Under the pieces are notes generated by a model. The model was not told the origin of the DNA and ran no database searches. It worked only from the letters and a program-made list of their open reading frames with translations. A DNA stretch of 28,597 nucleotides from a virus: positions 1 to 28,597 of the IMG/VR virus record IMGVR_UViG_3300042691_010939; one strand, written 5' to 3'. Shown here piece after piece: positions 6,493-25,525 of this stretch. How positions within the stretch are numbered: the stretch's first letter is position 1; each line of letters opens with the position of its first letter. The translations under genes and the position numbers were made by a program.

Positions 6493-7725
6493 TTATCCCT
6501 CAACAACTCGGGAAAGGTGGCCTTCAAACTTGAGTCCTACTTCTCCCAAGCCTCCCTGTCGGTTCTTGGCAACCTTCATAATCATCCAGCTCTTTTGCCA
6601 CTCAAACTGATCCTCAGCGATTGACTCTCGGTGCAGAAGTATTACAGCGTCAGCGTCCTGCTCAATCCCTCCTGAGTCGCGAAGGTCAGCCAGGTCGGGT
6701 CGGGCGTCTTTGCGTTGCTCAGGTCCTCTGTTGAGCTGGGCTAGTGCAATGACTGGCACATCCAAATCTCGAGCAAGGTTCTTTAGCCCGATAGAAATGT
6801 CAGTGATCATCTCGTAACGCTTTCGGCCCTTTTCAGTGTCCTGAATCAAGCCGAGGTAGTCAACGACTATTGCTCGGAGCTTGCCGTTGCCTTTTACGCT
6901 GTTCGCAAGGGCTCGTATCTGCATAAGGTTTTGGCCAGACTTGTCGTGGATCGCGAGCTGATGGCTCGTTATCTTTTCTTTAGCTCTTGCAATCTTGTCC
7001 CAGTCAATGTCCTTGAGTGTCCCCTTCTCAATGTTGCCAATGTAGACCTCGGCCTCCATGCTGATTATGCGGTTGTAGAGTTCCGATTTGCCCATCTCAA
7101 GGCTGTGAAAACTAACTGGCCCCTGCTTTGAAAGCTCCCAAGCAATCTGCAAGCCAACAATTGTTTTTCCAATGCCAGGCCGAGCTCCAATAATGTAAAG
7201 AGCTCCTGGTCTAAATCCTGCAAGAATCTCGTTGAGTGATGGCCAAGGGCTAAGTGGGTAATCTTTGGGCTTGTCAATCTCGTCAAGGTAAGGAATCAGC
7301 TCCTCGCTAACATAGCTTGGTTTGCTTGCTTGGTTGCGGTCAATTAGATTGTCAATCTCTCGCTTGGCCTGATTCATTGCAGCAGGTAAGTCATCGCTTT
7401 GTGCCTTTAGCTGGATCAGTGTTCCGGCCTGTGCAAGCTTTCTCCTAGTTGATTCCTCAATCACCTTGCTGGCGTAGTAGGCAACGCTCACAGCTGTTGG
7501 GGTTGCGGTCATGCAGTCGTGCAAAAAGCTTGCGTACTTAGGAAGCCTTGCAGAGAGAGTAATCACATCCAAGGGCAATCTGTCGCGCTTCATCTCGAGC
7601 ATCGCCTCGTAGATTTTGCCATTGTTTAGATCGTAGAAGTCGGCTGGCGAGAGTGTCAGGTCATCCAGTGCCTTGCCGTTGGTCAGGAGCACCGAGCCAA
7701 TAACGGACATCTCAAAGTGGGTCAC
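6493..7725 (-). CDS. dnaB: DnaB-type replicative helicase (410 aa)
   Basis: Hexameric helicase that would unwind phage DNA ahead of the host polymerase. The N-terminal domain (MTHFEMSVIGSVLL...) matches DnaB, and the RecA-like domain follows. Walker A is GARPGIGKT (180-188), Walker B is around VVDYLGLI (287-294), then ALAQLNRG and a C-terminal KNRQGG segment with the expected Arg. At 410 aa it is slightly shorter than cellular DnaB (about 450-470). A GTG start at 7725 overlaps the TGA of the initiator gene (GTGA), the classic initiator-helicase pair as in lambda O-P. No primase or DNA polymerase is in the window, so host enzymes are probably recruited. Confidence 0.95.
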   Translation of the reverse strand: MTHFEMSVIGSVLLTNGKALDDLTLSPADFYDLNNGKIYEAMLEMKRDRLPLDVITLSARLPKYASFLHDCMTATPTAVSVAYYASKVIEESTRRKLAQAGTLIQLKAQSDDLPAAMNQAKREIDNLIDRNQASKPSYVSEELIPYLDEIDKPKDYPLSPWPSLNEILAGFRPGALYIIGARPGIGKTIVGLQIAWELSKQGPVSFHSLEMGKSELYNRIISMEAEVYIGNIEKGTLKDIDWDKIARAKEKITSHQLAIHDKSGQNLMQIRALANSVKGNGKLRAIVVDYLGLIQDTEKGRKRYEMITDISIGLKNLARDLDVPVIALAQLNRGPEQRKDARPDLADLRDSGGIEQDADAVILLHRESIAEDQFEWQKSWMIMKVAKNRQGGLGEVGLKFEGHLSRVVEG

Positions 7726-8384
7726 TTGATTCTCCCAAAGATAGGTTTGCCAGCTGGTTTTGTTTGCTCAGTTTGGACTGTATCGTAAAGCTCTTTGTTT
7801 AGCCATGAGGCAGGGTAAGGGATGAACTGGTGGTCGGGTAGTTTGCTCTCTGAGTAAGCCTTGACTAGTCCAATCAGCTCCTCAGCGGTTTTTTTCTTTG
7901 TGGCTTTGTTCCAGGCTTTTAGAGCATCAGCTTTTGCAATCTTTTTTGGGTATAGATTCCAGAAGGTTTCAAACTCATCAGCGTTGCTTTTTAGTGATGG
8001 TTCTTTGATGGTTATATTGATGTTTTGTGTGCCAACAGGTGTCACCCCTGATTTACCTGAGCTGTCACCCCTGCTTACCCAGTCTGTCACCCCTGGTGCT
8101 GAATCTGTCACCCCTGAGCCAATTGTTATCCAGTAAAGGTTGGTCTTGTATTGGTGATTTGTCGGTGCGTTTTGTAGCTCGACCCTTAGCTCGCCGAGCT
8201 CAATCAGTTCTTGGATGTCGCGCTTGACAGATCGGTCTGAGGCATTTGCGTATCGTGCCAAAGTGCTAATTGAAGGCCAGGCTCCTTGATCTCCAAGATG
8301 GTTTGCAATTCCAAGCAAGACAAGTTTCGCCCTGCCGGTGGCTTTGGAGTTGTTTAGTACTAGGGCTACTGCCTCAATGCTCAT
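7722..8384 (-). CDS. Replication initiator, lambda O-like winged-helix protein (220 aa)
   Basis: Residues about 10-75 form a winged-helix DNA-binding domain (GRAKLVLLGIANHLGD, WPSISTLARYANASDRSVKRDIQELIELGEL), the type found at the N-terminus of many phage initiators. A linker (about 88-125) rich in Gly, Thr, Asp and Ser follows. The C-terminal block has FWNLYPKK...KADALKAW and FIPYPASWLNKE, a recurring motif of phage replication proteins. The linker DNA contains four copies of an 11-base iteron, so the origin is probably inside this gene as in lambda. ATG at 8384 overlaps the upstream TGA (ATGA), and the end overlaps the helicase start. Confidence 0.85.
   Translation of the reverse strand: MSIEAVALVLNNSKATGRAKLVLLGIANHLGDQGAWPSISTLARYANASDRSVKRDIQELIELGELRVELQNAPTNHQYKTNLYWITIGSGVTDSAPGVTDWVSRGDSSGKSGVTPVGTQNINITIKEPSLKSNADEFETFWNLYPKKIAKADALKAWNKATKKKTAEELIGLVKAYSESKLPDHQFIPYPASWLNKELYDTVQTEQTKPAGKPIFGRIK
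8040..8116. repeat. Four origin iterons inside the initiator gene
   Basis: Four perfect copies of TGTCACCCCTG start at 8040, 8063, 8085 and 8106, so the spacing is 23, 22 and 21 bases, about two DNA turns. Because these steps are not all multiples of three, the copies are read in different frames (GVT in three, RGD in one), so the DNA rather than the protein is repeated. An A+T-rich stretch (about 7985-8033) lies alongside on the gene-downstream side. Lambda ori has the same layout: iterons in the middle of O followed by A+T-rich DNA. Confidence 0.8.
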
Positions 8385-11225: not shown

Positions 11226-11492
11226 ATGACAAGACAACTTGAAAGAAAATACATTGAGCTTCAACACGCCATCAGCGAGAACGGGGGCGTTGAGTGTAGC
11301 CAGCTACCTGAGTGCTTTTTTCCCGAGGATGAGCCAGATGTTTACCTGCGCAAAAAGCTGATCGCTGTAGCCAAGGAAGTCTGCACCGACTGTCCGGTAA
11401 GGCTGAGGTGTCTTGACTACGCTTTGTCAGCTGGCATGGTTGGTATCTGGGGTGGCACTACAGCCGAGGAACGCTCGAAGCTAAGGGCTTAG
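11226..11492 (+). CDS. whiB: WhiB-family iron-sulfur transcription regulator (88 aa)
   Basis: Fe-S cluster regulator restricted to Actinobacteria and their phages. It has the WhiB order: C24 before FFP, then C53-TDC56-PVRLRC62 (the C-x2-C-x5-C set), then GIWGG (73-77) and a short basic ERSKLR end. An additional C30 lies next to FFP. Family members bind sigma factor region 4 and alter transcription; mycobacteriophage TM4 has one that affects the host cell. It is one of only two plus-strand genes and is divergent from the early operon, sharing a palindromic control region; the ATG is probably the first base of its mRNA. The stop overlaps the stop of the convergent membrane protein gene. Confidence 0.95.
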   Translation: MTRQLERKYIELQHAISENGGVECSQLPECFFPEDEPDVYLRKKLIAVAKEVCTDCPVRLRCLDYALSAGMVGIWGGTTAEERSKLRA

Positions 11493-13460: not shown

Positions 13461-14048
13461 ATGACCGAGTATAAGACTTGCACTTACTGTAAGCAACTTA
13501 AGCCTGTATCTGACTATTACCTAAATCATGGGACTACAACGCCCAGAAGCAGGTGCAAGCCATGTGTCAATTTGTGTTCAAACATTAGTAGGCAAAAAGA
13601 CCCCGATAAATACCGGAAGCAAAATTTAGCTCATTACTACAAAAACAAAGACAAGCTGAATGAGCAAAGGCGAGCCAAGTGGCCTGAGCTTTACAAGTCA
13701 AAGATTGAATACCACAGGGAAAAGGGCAAAAAGTATCGAGCCGAAAACCCAGACAAGATAAACGCCATAGCTCGTAGAAAAAGGGCTAGGAAAAAAGCTA
13801 ACGGCTGGGAAAAATACACAGAGGCTCAGGTACTTGAGCTGTATGGTGCTGTTTGCCACATCTGTTGCGAGGCAATAGACCTAACCTTGCCTAGAAGGAT
13901 TGGTGTTGAGGGCTGGGAAAAAGGTTTGCAGATTGACCATGTAATACCTATCTCAAAGGGTGGCCCCGATACTTTGGCTAATGTCAAGCCGAGTCATGGC
14001 AAGTGCAACCAGAATAAAAGGGCTAACTTACCTGATGATGTTCAGTAG
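13461..14048 (+). CDS. HNH homing-type endonuclease, opposite strand (195 aa)
   Basis: N-terminal zinc finger (CTYCKQLKPVSDYY, then SRCKPC), a long very basic helical region (residues 45-120, many Lys/Arg/Tyr) and a C-terminal HNH core: CHICCEAIDL, QIDHVIPISKGGPDTLANV, then HGKCNQNKR. This build is common for free-standing phage HNH endonucleases. ATG at 13461 follows AAAAGGAG. It is on the plus strand between the tail and lysis genes, is A-rich compared with its neighbours, and overlaps the convergent XhlA-like gene by 21 bases, all signs of a mobile insertion with its own promoter. Confidence 0.9.
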   Translation: MTEYKTCTYCKQLKPVSDYYLNHGTTTPRSRCKPCVNLCSNISRQKDPDKYRKQNLAHYYKNKDKLNEQRRAKWPELYKSKIEYHREKGKKYRAENPDKINAIARRKRARKKANGWEKYTEAQVLELYGAVCHICCEAIDLTLPRRIGVEGWEKGLQIDHVIPISKGGPDTLANVKPSHGKCNQNKRANLPDDVQ

Positions 14049-22148: not shown

Positions 22149-22783
22149 GAGTTTGCCCTTCTAATTTTTAGCGACCAGTTGCCTTCGCTGTAATCGTCAT
22201 TCAAAACTTTAGATTCAAAAAGTGCCTGATTACGGCCATAGGTCTGATTGTTCTTTAGTTCGTTGCCCTTCAAGCTAGAGCTGTTGTCATGGTGGACTAT
22301 TGCGTCTATCCTTCTGACTGGCAAGCCAGCTTTTCTGATTCTGCGCTCATAGTCGTTGTCATCAAAGTAAAGGGGGTAAAGGCGTTCATCGTAAAGTCCT
22401 ACCTCCTCGACCACCTTTTGCCCAAGCACAATGCAAGACCAATCGGTGTTGATGTGTGGAAAGCAAAGCCCATCGGGGTTTGCGTCTTGATCAATGATGT
22501 CAAGAGCTCCCTCGCCAAACCATGCGTCATCGTTCACTAGCAACCAGTAAGGGGCGTGAGGTGTTGACTTTACAATCAAGTTCCAAGCACCTACAAGGCC
22601 AAGCCCAAAGGGCACTCTAATCATCCAAAGGTTTTTCACCTTTTCTGGCTGAGCAGGTTGCCAAGTGTTAGTCCCTGAGTTGTCAACAATGACTAGGTGC
22701 TCTACTGGGTAGTCGATTGAGTCAAGTAGCCTTTGAGCTAGGTCAAACCTTTTTAGGGTTGCAAAGCCTAAGACTGGGATCAC
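22139..22783 (-). CDS. GT2-like glycosyltransferase (214 aa)
   Basis: GT-A-fold family 2-type enzyme. Visible parts are VIVDNSG (31-37) in the nucleotide-binding strand, LVNDDAW (82-88) with the DxD-like acidic pair, and FDDNDYERRIRKAG (140-153), which carries a base-type Asp and matches GT2 rhamnosyl/galactosyl transferases. Short for the family and without membrane segments, hence probably cytosolic. ATG at 22783 overlaps the GT4-like gene's end (ATGA). Confidence 0.85.
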   Translation of the reverse strand: MIPVLGFATLKRFDLAQRLLDSIDYPVEHLVIVDNSGTNTWQPAQPEKVKNLWMIRVPFGLGLVGAWNLIVKSTPHAPYWLLVNDDAWFGEGALDIIDQDANPDGLCFPHINTDWSCIVLGQKVVEEVGLYDERLYPLYFDDNDYERRIRKAGLPVRRIDAIVHHDNSSSLKGNELKNNQTYGRNQALFESKVLNDDYSEGNWSLKIRRANSWD

Positions 22784-23973
22784 TTGAGTAGCTTCTTTAG
22801 CACCGGCACCCAGTGGTTTTCCCAGACTGTTTGAATGTCAAACTGTTGAGCAAAGTCGACTGCAATTGTGGAAGTGCCTCGCTCTGCTTCGTAAGCCTCC
22901 TTGAGTGCGTTGACAAGGCTAGGGATGTTTGGTGTTTGCCACCAGGCGTCTTGCCCTGCATCCCAGCTCGGCTGTCCATCGGTAAGCCAAGAGTCCTCAC
23001 TGATTAGGTCAGGAGTTGCTGCCCAGTTAGATCCGATGACCCTCGTGCCACAGGCTTGAGCTTCAAGAGCAGTGACGCCAAAGCCTTCTCCATAGCTAGG
23101 GGCAAGTAGCACATCCATTCTTGTGTAGATAGCAGCAAGGTCTTTCTTGGACATTCCAAAGCGGTAGTCGTGTGGGTTAGGCAAGAGCACCTTGTCTTTA
23201 GGTATGCCAAGTGACTGAAGGATCTTGATTAGGTTCCAGCCTCCTGCTAAGCCGTAAGGGTCAGTGTGTAGATAGAGCAAAGCGTCAGGGTGGTCTTTGG
23301 AGAAGATGCTAAAGGCCATGAGCAATTCACTAAAAGCTTTGCGGTGCACTAAGCCCGAGGCCTTGTTAGCTGCAACAACCCCAACAAGGAATTGGTCTGG
23401 CTCAATGCCAAGGTAGTCGTTGATGGCGTGGTTGCCAATCTCAAAGCTTGGCTTGTAAACCTTTGTGTCAACAGCGTGAGGCACATACTCACAGTCGATT
23501 CCTTTTGCTGTCATCTGCCTAACGCCATGAGGTGCCATCGCAATAGGTGTGACATTCGGCTTTGTTAGCCACTGCTCAACCTTTGGTGGCATTGTCACAT
23601 GATCAAGGGGCACCCATGAGGCAATCGGAAACTTGTCGTAGCCTGGCGCTTGCATAACCCAAACATCGTAAAGGCTAATAAACAGGTTTGGTTTGTCTGG
23701 GTTTCTATCGATAAAGCTTTGGTGGTCTATCGGTGCAGCATCGTTGCTGTAAAGGTCAATGCCTCGAGGGTAGTGTGGAACCTCTCCATGAGGGGTCTTG
23801 ATTGTTGTTGGCACACCTTCAAGTCCGTAGTTGGAGAGCATCTGCACATCAAGGCCAGAGCCCTTGAGGCTGTCTAGCAGGTGAGTGGCTTGCTGTCCGT
23901 ATCCGGTTGGTGAGTTGTAGCTGTTTGACCAAAGGCTGACAGCTCCGTTTAGTTTCTCTTTTTTAGTAGGCAT
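22780..23973 (-). CDS. GT4-like glycosyltransferase (397 aa)
   Basis: GT-B-fold transferase. The C-terminal half has the family's sugar-nucleotide motif SYGEGFGVTALEAQACG (E296 and E304, the E-x7-E pair) and a YVPHAVDT-type strand near residue 163. The N-terminal SPTGYGQQATHLLDSL segment matches the acceptor-side Gly loop. Cytosolic. It starts just 20 bases after the capsid terminator and has only a weak upstream site, so its own promoter is not evident; it may depend on read-through. With the next two genes it forms a sugar-modification block inserted in the head module. Confidence 0.88.
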   Translation of the reverse strand: MPTKKEKLNGAVSLWSNSYNSPTGYGQQATHLLDSLKGSGLDVQMLSNYGLEGVPTTIKTPHGEVPHYPRGIDLYSNDAAPIDHQSFIDRNPDKPNLFISLYDVWVMQAPGYDKFPIASWVPLDHVTMPPKVEQWLTKPNVTPIAMAPHGVRQMTAKGIDCEYVPHAVDTKVYKPSFEIGNHAINDYLGIEPDQFLVGVVAANKASGLVHRKAFSELLMAFSIFSKDHPDALLYLHTDPYGLAGGWNLIKILQSLGIPKDKVLLPNPHDYRFGMSKKDLAAIYTRMDVLLAPSYGEGFGVTALEAQACGTRVIGSNWAATPDLISEDSWLTDGQPSWDAGQDAWWQTPNIPSLVNALKEAYEAERGTSTIAVDFAQQFDIQTVWENHWVPVLKKLLK

Positions 23974-24047: not shown

Positions 24048-25199
24048 TTAGCTTGCTCCACCCTTGAAGTACCCGATGTGGGTAGCGTGGGTTAGTCCAC
24101 CATCAAGGCGAATTAGGCCTCGGTAGGTAACTGTGTCAGTGTTGAAGGCGTAGTCAGCTGACTGGTCAACTCGGATACCGCCGGCAACGCGAACGACGAA
24201 ACTCGGTAGGTGCCCAAAGAGCACCGACTTGGTTCCTGTTCCAACTGCTGCAACATTTGGGTTCTCAAATACTGGGTAGCCAAGAAGTGTTGCTGGCTGA
24301 CCTGGTACTGCTGAGTCGGTCCAGATGTAGTTTCCTGCACCATCCTTTAGCTTGCGAGCTGCTGCGATACCTGACTTGCTCATCTGGAAGCCCAAGTTTG
24401 GCAACACACGAGCGCCATCTGCGATTCCGTAGACTAGGTCGATCAGGTTTTCGTAGGTAGCTGCTCCACCAACACCGGTTCCACCAGTCACTACTGAGCC
24501 AGCGGCTGCAGATAGCTTTGAGGTTAGAACGGAGTTAGCCTGTAGACCCAGGCTTGTACCGAGCTGTTGGGCGATGTAGCTGGTGATGTTAAATCCGGCA
24601 TCGCTTACTAGTTCGCTGGCGATTTGGCTCAAAGCTCCGTATTTCTCAGCACCTAGTGTGATGGATGAGAAGGTTGGGTTTGACTCTGAGATGGTTCCGC
24701 CGGCTGCAACTGATCCTGATGTTGAAGTCGCTGTGACTGTCGGAATTACCAGGTTCTCGCCCGACTGAGTGTTCAAGACATCAGACACAGTTAGCATTGG
24801 GCCAACTAGCTGAGCAATCTCAAATACCTGGTCGTAGAAGCTCTGGCCAACAGTGTTAGCTGAAGGAACTAGAGTTCTGTTTTCACGAGCAAACTCGTAT
24901 CCGCGCATCTCGCCCATAGCGATTGAGCGAAGGATGTCTGCATCGTTGTTTGCTGTTGCGTTGGTTGATGGAGCGAATGAAGCGGATGCTTCAGCTGCGC
25001 GAGCTTCGCGGTCTGCGATAGAACGAGCGGTTGAGATAGCTGTGTCGGCCTGGTCAATGTCAGCCTCGATACGAGCAATCTTCTGGTTTTCTTCTGCTGA
25101 TAGACCGCGAGCCTCAGCCTGTGCGATGTCAAGAACTTCTCTTGCCTGTGCAATCAGGTTGTTGCGAGTGTCCATCTGTGACTTAATAAAGTCAGACAT
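24048..25199 (-). CDS. Major capsid protein, HK97 fold (383 aa)
   Basis: Forms the icosahedral shell. Residues 1-75 (MSDFIKSQMDTRNNLIAQA..., ending in an Ala/Arg/Glu helix) are a delta-domain scaffold that the protease should remove. The mature part begins near AMGEMRGYEFAREN. Family landmarks include IPTVTATSTSGSVAAGGTI, SSITLGAEKYGALSQIASEL (cited to 20) and the end VRVAGGIRVDQSADYAFNTD. ATG at 25199 with TTAGGAGAA is much better than the frame's far start at 25271, whose extra 24 residues would cover the upstream repeats. Flanked by terminators on both sides. Confidence 0.95.
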   Translation of the reverse strand: MSDFIKSQMDTRNNLIAQAREVLDIAQAEARGLSAEENQKIARIEADIDQADTAISTARSIADREARAAEASASFAPSTNATANNDADILRSIAMGEMRGYEFARENRTLVPSANTVGQSFYDQVFEIAQLVGPMLTVSDVLNTQSGENLVIPTVTATSTSGSVAAGGTISESNPTFSSITLGAEKYGALSQIASELVSDAGFNITSYIAQQLGTSLGLQANSVLTSKLSAAAGSVVTGGTGVGGAATYENLIDLVYGIADGARVLPNLGFQMSKSGIAAARKLKDGAGNYIWTDSAVPGQPATLLGYPVFENPNVAAVGTGTKSVLFGHLPSFVVRVAGGIRVDQSADYAFNTDTVTYRGLIRLDGGLTHATHIGYFKGGAS

Positions 25200-25233
25200 G
25201 ATTCTCCTAATGATTTGATTTGAGGGGTTTCCT

Positions 25234-25274
25234 GCGGTGCTAACACTCAACAGAAACAGCGGTGCTAACACTCA
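25234..25274. repeat. Tandem 16-bp repeats upstream of capsid gene
   Basis: GCGGTGCTAACACTCA occurs at 25234-25249 and again, identical, at 25259-25274, a step of 25 bases. Each contains the near-palindrome GTGCTAACAC. They lie between the upstream terminator and the capsid ribosome-binding site, where the capsid promoter must be, so an operator or activator pair is likely. A TATAAA (minus strand, 25294-25289) lies just before them but has no clear -35. Confidence 0.65.
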
Positions 25275-25348: not shown

Positions 25349-25525
25349 TTAGCGAGTTTCTTTTATGTCAATAACCCTTGCTTCTTTGGCTGGGTTATTT
25401 GAGTTCTTGTTGTCAAGTTCCCAGACTGCTTTTGCAAGCTCATCTGCTATCTCGGCAACAGCGCCGGCGGAAGGGTTGCCAGCAGCCTTTAGTATAGCTG
25501 ACTTGATTTCATCTTTAGTTGCCAT
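25349..25525 (-). CDS. Small protein after the protease (58 aa)
   Basis: Helical, Ala/Asp/Glu-rich: DEIKSAILKAAGNPSAGAV then IADELAKAVWELDN, ending ARVIDIKETR. ATG at 25525 starts two bases after the protease stop, with AGGATTT-like sequence upstream. A short gene in this place between protease and capsid is frequent in actinophages, but its function is not known; an assembly or scaffold role fits. Terminator directly downstream. Confidence 0.7.
   Translation of the reverse strand: MATKDEIKSAILKAAGNPSAGAVAEIADELAKAVWELDNKNSNNPAKEARVIDIKETR

Follow-up and report, generated by a model that had tools for sequence, protein, structure and literature searches.

Origins of replication built from iterons inside a gene are textbook knowledge for phage lambda. 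In that phage, four iterons placed ~20-24 bp apart lie in the middle of the O gene, and an A+T-rich tract is adjacent to them (PMC7466680). In the RepA_N initiator of the plasmid pSK41, the central part encoded by the origin is a dispensable linker, while the C-terminal domain contacts the replisome; in the staphylococcal plasmid pPR9, an N-terminal domain of the PF13730 family, with its own origin segment, sits on a C-terminal domain of the pSK41 type, the plasmid replicates autonomously, and the N-terminal domain and origin segment were swapped as a module of ~500 bp (PMC5703833). In-gene origins as such are already known, then, from both lambda and the RepA_N plasmids. Here we analyze the viral record IMGVR_UViG_3300042691_010939 over its full 28,597 bp (hereafter the window), in which positions 7985-8116 very probably constitute a lambda-like phage replication origin inside the gene of its own initiator, as judged from repeats, their conservation and their co-variation with the encoded protein.

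The primary feature of this locus is a set of four exact direct repeats within the open reading frame (ORF) of a predicted initiator:

7722-8384, minus strand: initiator gene, encoding 220 amino acids (winged helix, disordered linker and C-terminal helical domain, from Pfam, PHROG and AlphaFold2)
8040-8050, plus strand: iteron TGTCACCCCTG, exact match, the copy closest to the AACCATCA repeats treated below
8063-8073, plus strand: iteron TGTCACCCCTG, exact match, third codon positions conserved
8085-8095, plus strand: iteron TGTCACCCCTG, exact match, third codon positions conserved
8106-8116, plus strand: iteron TGTCACCCCTG, exact match, the copy most distant from the AACCATCA repeats

Their starts are separated by steps of 23, 22 and 21 nt, and no further TGTCACCCCTG occurs anywhere else in the record. 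None of 100 dinucleotide shuffles of the window brought four copies of one 11-mer together in a 110-bp stretch, the top cluster holding three copies once and otherwise two or one; outside the iterons, the window itself has at most two copies of one 11-mer within that distance. As the copies lie on the antisense strand of the ORF, the gene strand reads CAGGGGTGACA, at gene offsets 268, 289, 311 and 334, i.e. in frames 1, 1, 2 and 1 in gene order. One of the three frames of CAGGGGTGACA contains TGA, and the copies occupy the other two. A preliminary description of this DNA had noted the four exact repeats with these steps in an initiator gene, and both coordinates and copies were verified; its remark that the steps break the reading frame is right for two of the three, those of 22 and 23 nt, because the 21-nt step is in frame. 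The coding sequence of the initiator thus harbors several direct repeats spaced about two helical turns apart.

These repeats are under selection at the DNA level, beyond that imposed by the protein alone. Across 40 distinct colinear relatives with protein identity >75%, all third codon positions inside the iterons are identical (16/16, 100%), the corresponding values being 99% for the AACCATCA repeats, 74% for the rest of the linker and 55% for the codons of the winged helix-turn-helix (wHTH) domain; the 4-fold sites in the iterons are likewise better conserved than all other 4-fold sites (Mann-Whitney p 2e-7). To avoid a choice based on the word itself, we also gathered initiators by protein similarity alone and clustered them at 65% identity, which gave 28 clusters including that of the window. 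In 23 of these the linker carries a repeat, 9 nt or longer, with a spacing of 20-25 nt, versus an average of 2.1 of 28, and 6 at most, in synonymous shuffles that keep each protein fixed; a 9-nt repeat is nearly missing from the wHTH and C-terminal gene segments. The suggestion of the preliminary description that selection acts on the DNA is upheld by these shuffles together with the full third-position conservation, and the check it proposed, an in-gene repeat in relatives even where the word differs, is borne out by the same 23 of 28 initiators.

Relatives at ~24-39% protein identity have direct repeats in the same place composed of different words. These words include GGGGTGACA, GGGGTGCAA or GGGGTGCAC in Pseudomonas phages, GGGGTGAAC in the Arthrobacter phage Galaxy, AAACCCGGAAC in EBPR podovirus 2 and AATGAACCCA in the Acinetobacter phage AP22. 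As a positive control, the known in-gene iterons of lambda O (L602) were recovered at spacings of 20 and 23 nt, and a scan based on SfV added near-identical copies and one extra cluster. Small Enterobacter plasmids (L603:127-678, L604:1136-1813) encode a gene with an initiator-like winged-helix part and no in-gene repeats, whose linker repeats TVDQLVRIAAA-like peptides. They proved to be ColRNAI/Rop replicons with repeat-free genes, and this helix-turn-helix gene is therefore used only as a negative control, in which no such repeats were found.

The repeat can also be approached from the DNA side. A search of viral contigs with the pattern TGTCACCCC N8-22 TGTCACCCC, blind to any protein, gave at least 120 matches. 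Among the matches listed, spacings peak at 21-23 nt (60, 58 and 52 cases), the repeats are mostly near mid-gene, the word is antisense to the gene in 88 cases and sense in 24, and the repeat-spanning ORFs contain PF13730 in 93 of 111 and match the replication initiators of phrog_270 in 98 of 111. A search with the repeat alone thus leads to replication initiators; the control with the reversed word returned 13 loci, with PF13730 in none of the 10 ORFs scanned there. A three-copy pattern sought in genome contigs mostly retrieved simple tandem repeats, with no suitable ORF at 43 of 115 loci and a winged-helix domain at only 15 loci (16 ORF pieces), and this set was accordingly left out of the counts of breadth.

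Some loci show the word in other arrangements. Two contigs of 76.6 kb (L046) and 84.7 kb (L081) have, near positions 1381 and 5092, arrays of TGTCACC in both orientations (22, 22 and 72 nt), in which GGTGACA alternates and the sole overlapping ORF encodes 112 amino acids; these may represent another use of the word or an origin independent of an initiator gene. At L024, L038, L054, L090, L117, L280 and others, TGTCACC and GGTGACA occur close by, forming partly palindromic sites ~10-12 nt apart that may reflect dimer binding in those phages, and unlike these the window has direct repeats only.

The iteron word co-varies with two residues of the predicted recognition helix, R51 and R55 in the window, whose invariance is at least 90% in group A2. 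Two close relatives have S51 in place of R51: the four copies of L187 all read GGGGTGTCA, and the three of L196 all read GGGGGTTCA. L589, a member of a distant group of Pseudomonas type, combines S51 and R55 with GGGGTGTCA, and GGGGTGCA is the word of its neighbors that have R51 together with Y, N, S or T at position 55. The overall pattern is that R55 accompanies TGNCA words, residues other than R55 accompany other words and S51 accompanies GTGTCA or GGTTCA words, with all copies switching jointly. Under a blind rule that scores a pair of TGACA or TGTCA at 19-26 nt, applied to 93 cluster-and-residue rows, R55 and the pair agree in 87 (a 66/21 split) and disagree in 6, and the protein-selected rows agree in 30 of 32 (Fisher p 4e-15 and 3e-6, respectively, both ignoring kinship). 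Labels read by hand give a perfect 69/20 split, for which the blind-rule figure is the more trustworthy substitute. On a tree built without columns 51 and 55, R55 and the word need 11 changes each. This co-variation supports the binding of the iterons by the winged helix, with R55 presumably contacting the G opposite the C of GTGAC.

A second, shorter array follows the iterons along the gene strand, within A+T-rich DNA:

7985-8033, no strand assigned: A+T-rich stretch (65%), probable melting site, at the 97.7th percentile of 49-bp stretches and holding short repeats
8006-8013, minus strand: first AACCATCA, candidate DNA-unwinding element, from its position, the enrichment of the motif family and 99% third-position conservation
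7995-8002, minus strand: second AACCATCA, offset from the first by 11 nt and in a different reading frame, candidate on the same basis as the first

The preliminary description had pointed to 7985-8033 for its A+T content, which at 65% stands; the account was incomplete in that the conserved feature is the tandem AACCATCA repeat. A+T fractions of ~0.6-0.67 extend from ~7916 to 8050 without sharp bounds, and within the gene the 49-mer with the highest A+T content begins at 7932. Many initiators have comparable AACC(A/G)TC words at 10-13-nt spacing past the iterons on the gene strand, mostly by 7-36 nt, and these occupy all three frames. At least two such words are present in 8 of the 28 protein-selected initiators versus 0.5 expected with the protein fixed. 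Galaxy repeats GAACCGTCC at 11 nt in three frames, and the SfV-type and Y8A-type genes, which have other iterons, show GAACCAGTCA and GAACCTATCA at 12 nt. Tandem repeats of the GAACC(A/G)TC type (11-12 nt) are alike in phages with differing iterons and, because the array stays alike while the iteron word changes, its recognizer would be a conserved part of the initiator or the host machinery. The iterons of the window are thus adjoined by an A+T-rich element with conserved short repeats. In place, composition and layout, this array recalls the repeat-based unwinding elements found at plasmid origins, suggesting a function in unwinding.

The encoded protein and its neighborhood are consistent with a replicative role. 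The domains of the initiator and the adjacent helicase are as follows:

8115-8384, minus strand: winged-helix DNA-binding domain, codons 1-90, with recognition helix S49-D-R51-S-V-K-R55 (AlphaFold2)
7785-7985, minus strand: C-terminal helical domain, codons 134-200, putative helicase-recruiting part (AlphaFold2, PHROG)
6493-7725, minus strand: DnaB-type replicative helicase, 410 amino acids (PF03796 E 7.9e-74, PF00772 E 1.3e-14), overlapping the initiator gene by 4 bp

Residues 17-64 of the initiator match PF13730 (HTH_36; E 2.9e-10, 40.2 bits against a curated cut-off of 25), and the protein matches several PHROG 'replication initiation' families, among them phrog_270 (E 2.9e-34) and phrog_8540 (E 2.9e-23), so that it scores as an initiator by both the Pfam and the PHROG assignment. 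The label 'lambda O-like' in the preliminary description applies at the PHROG level only: PF04492 (Phage_rep_O), the family that lambda O itself matches at 5.7e-36, leaves the window protein unmatched even at E<=1, and PF06970 (RepA_N) likewise gives it no Pfam match. An AlphaFold2 model built from 46 viral sequences shows a confident N-terminal winged helix ending near residue 90 (helices 39-46 and 50-63, strands 66-69 and 83-86; predicted local distance difference test, pLDDT, mostly 89-98 by block, with one block at 77) and a confident helical domain at ~134-200 (helices 135-144, 151-164, 167-179 and 191-196; pLDDT 91-96 from residue 141 and 80 in block 131-140), with residues 92-129 between them below pLDDT 50. 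Since the iterons and short repeats are the DNA encoding residues 90-131, their position matches that of the disordered part almost exactly. Residues 119-204 match a PHROG 'primosomal protein'. Foldseek searches of the model against the PDB gave generic winged-helix matches only, none at E<=0.001; the weak matches include 4pql, 4pt7 and 5kbj, which we take to be RepA_N-type domains.

The DnaB-type helicase that the preliminary description had placed beside the initiator is indeed encoded by the next gene, with both DnaB domains. RusA and a YqaJ nuclease are encoded near the initiator gene, and no helicase loader similar to lambda P or DnaC was found among the genes scanned, a subset of the window ORFs. 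Elsewhere in the window, an HNH/endonuclease VII-like gene (13461-14048, plus strand) runs opposite to the minus direction of the other identified genes, and a glycosyltransferase-like gene (22780-23973, minus strand) lies in the structural block, beside the gene for the major head protein (24048-25271).

Taken as an origin, the locus would operate as follows, with binding, melting and helicase loading modeled on lambda (PMC7466680) and pSK41 (PMC5703833). The N-terminal winged helix would bind the four iterons (CAGGGGTGACA on the gene strand), whose spacing of about two helical turns would align the copies along almost the same side of the double helix; once assembled, the complex would open the adjacent A+T-rich stretch with its 11-nt-spaced AACCATCA repeats; and the C-terminal helical domain, attached through the disordered linker whose coding sequence is the origin itself, might help to place the neighboring phage DnaB.

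Several observations weigh against this proposal. The curve of cumulative G-C skew makes no global turn at 8.0 kb, the check put forward in the preliminary description; it has its minimum at 11,273 and its maximum at 25,412, though this counts for little because the record spans 28.6 kb and is possibly partial. The contig is also linear and may be incomplete. The relation between residue and word has exceptions under the blind rule: the initiator of Vibrio phage D68 (L336:2444-3238) has N55 yet TGACA pairs in its linker and is a true exception, L431 has R55 with GTGCCA, L103 and L116 have repeats at other spacings, and the region examined in L062 and L079 is free of such repeats. Finally, only 3 independent pairs of changes lie on strongly supported branches (agreement 3/3).

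Among the alternatives, the repeats could be operators through which the wHTH protein regulates its own operon, with replication starting elsewhere. Such a protein with cognate in-gene repeats would bind them in either case, sites within a transcribed gene can repress, and the GC skew gives an origin here no support; but the sites are in mid-gene rather than at a promoter, the protein belongs to families of replication initiators, an operator would not need the second conserved array on the A+T-rich side, and the same layout serves as an origin in lambda and pSK41 (PMC7466680, PMC5703833), all of which make pure autoregulation improbable. It is still harder to sustain that the iterons bind another protein, be it a host factor or a different phage protein. 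The GGGGTG half of the word, common to initiators of phages with very different hosts, could fit a conserved partner, but the word switches with residues 51 and 55 of the initiator, differs between close relatives (L187 and L196 versus the window) and has been reached in the same form by separate lineages (S51 with GGGGTGTCA in L187 and L589), making this reading quite unlikely. That the repeats are a protein-level linker feature (GVTD/RGDS/GVTP-type) or a product of replication slippage without DNA function is barely credible, for although linker repeats do expand by slippage and residues such as GVT recur in the linker, the iteron copies occupy two frames, the linker is predicted to be disordered, the same word occurs on either strand in unrelated initiators, and the synonymous shuffles and third-position conservation rule it out.

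An origin within the initiator gene is therefore the interpretation we carry forward, and on balance we lean towards its extension to the PF13730 phage class as a whole, which would have a bipartite in-gene origin: iterons with a GGGGTG-NN-A core, the last bases of which follow a code at residues 51/55 of the recognition helix, and a GAACC(A/G)TC-type array at 11-12 nt recognized by a conserved initiator part or host machinery. In the open-access papers searched we found no description of the origin of phages with PF13730 initiators, nor of the shared iteron core of this class, the two-residue relation or the second array, part of which may be known, and a literature search for the repeat word returned only unrelated primers and sequences. 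Because the arrangement recurs while the word changes with two amino acids, the origins of many unrelated phages are potentially predictable from sequence. If this is true, sequence could show directly where many uncultivated phages start replication and which initiator compatibility group they belong to. Searching with nothing but the repeat word picks out initiators among hundreds of thousands of contigs that lack annotation, and the two residues predict the word, which would allow origins to be annotated and competition between phages or phage-plasmids for one initiator to be forecast. The natural matched specificity switches (the window type, L187 and L196) offer a clean experimental system, and the short array shared beside differing iterons raises the question of its recognizer.

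Placed beside the known systems, the locus shares distinct elements with each. RK2 oriV likewise has iterons followed by tandem short A+T-rich repeats, the latter being 13-mers of consensus TAAACnTTnTTTT that the initiator TrfA binds in single-stranded form (PMC4081077); oriV, however, is outside the rep gene, belongs with another initiator family and includes DnaA boxes, whereas the window has an in-gene GAACCATCA-like word at 11-12-nt spacing. Lambda O and ori-lambda have in common with the window an N-terminal DNA-binding domain, mid-gene iterons and an adjoining A+T-rich tract. They differ in that lambda O belongs to PF04492 and the window protein to PF13730, the lambda iterons are 18-bp near-palindromes (ATCCCTCAAAACGAGGGA) in place of the window core GGGGTGACA, and lambda has the separate loader P where the window has the DnaB-like gene directly next and no loader identified among the genes scanned; in lambda O we also found no repeat, 8 nt or longer, with a spacing of 10-14 nt. 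The RepA_N system of pSK41, with its in-gene origin, resembles the arrangement proposed for the window, and the folds that the model matches weakly include RepA_N-type domains; the system is set apart by PF06970, which the window protein does not match, by other box sequences and by the lack of a fold match at E 0.001. The chimeric initiator of pPR9 shares the PF13730 N-terminal domain with the window protein and differs in its C-terminal part of the pSK41 type; among experimental results, the autonomous replication of pPR9 comes closest to supporting an origin at 7985-8116.
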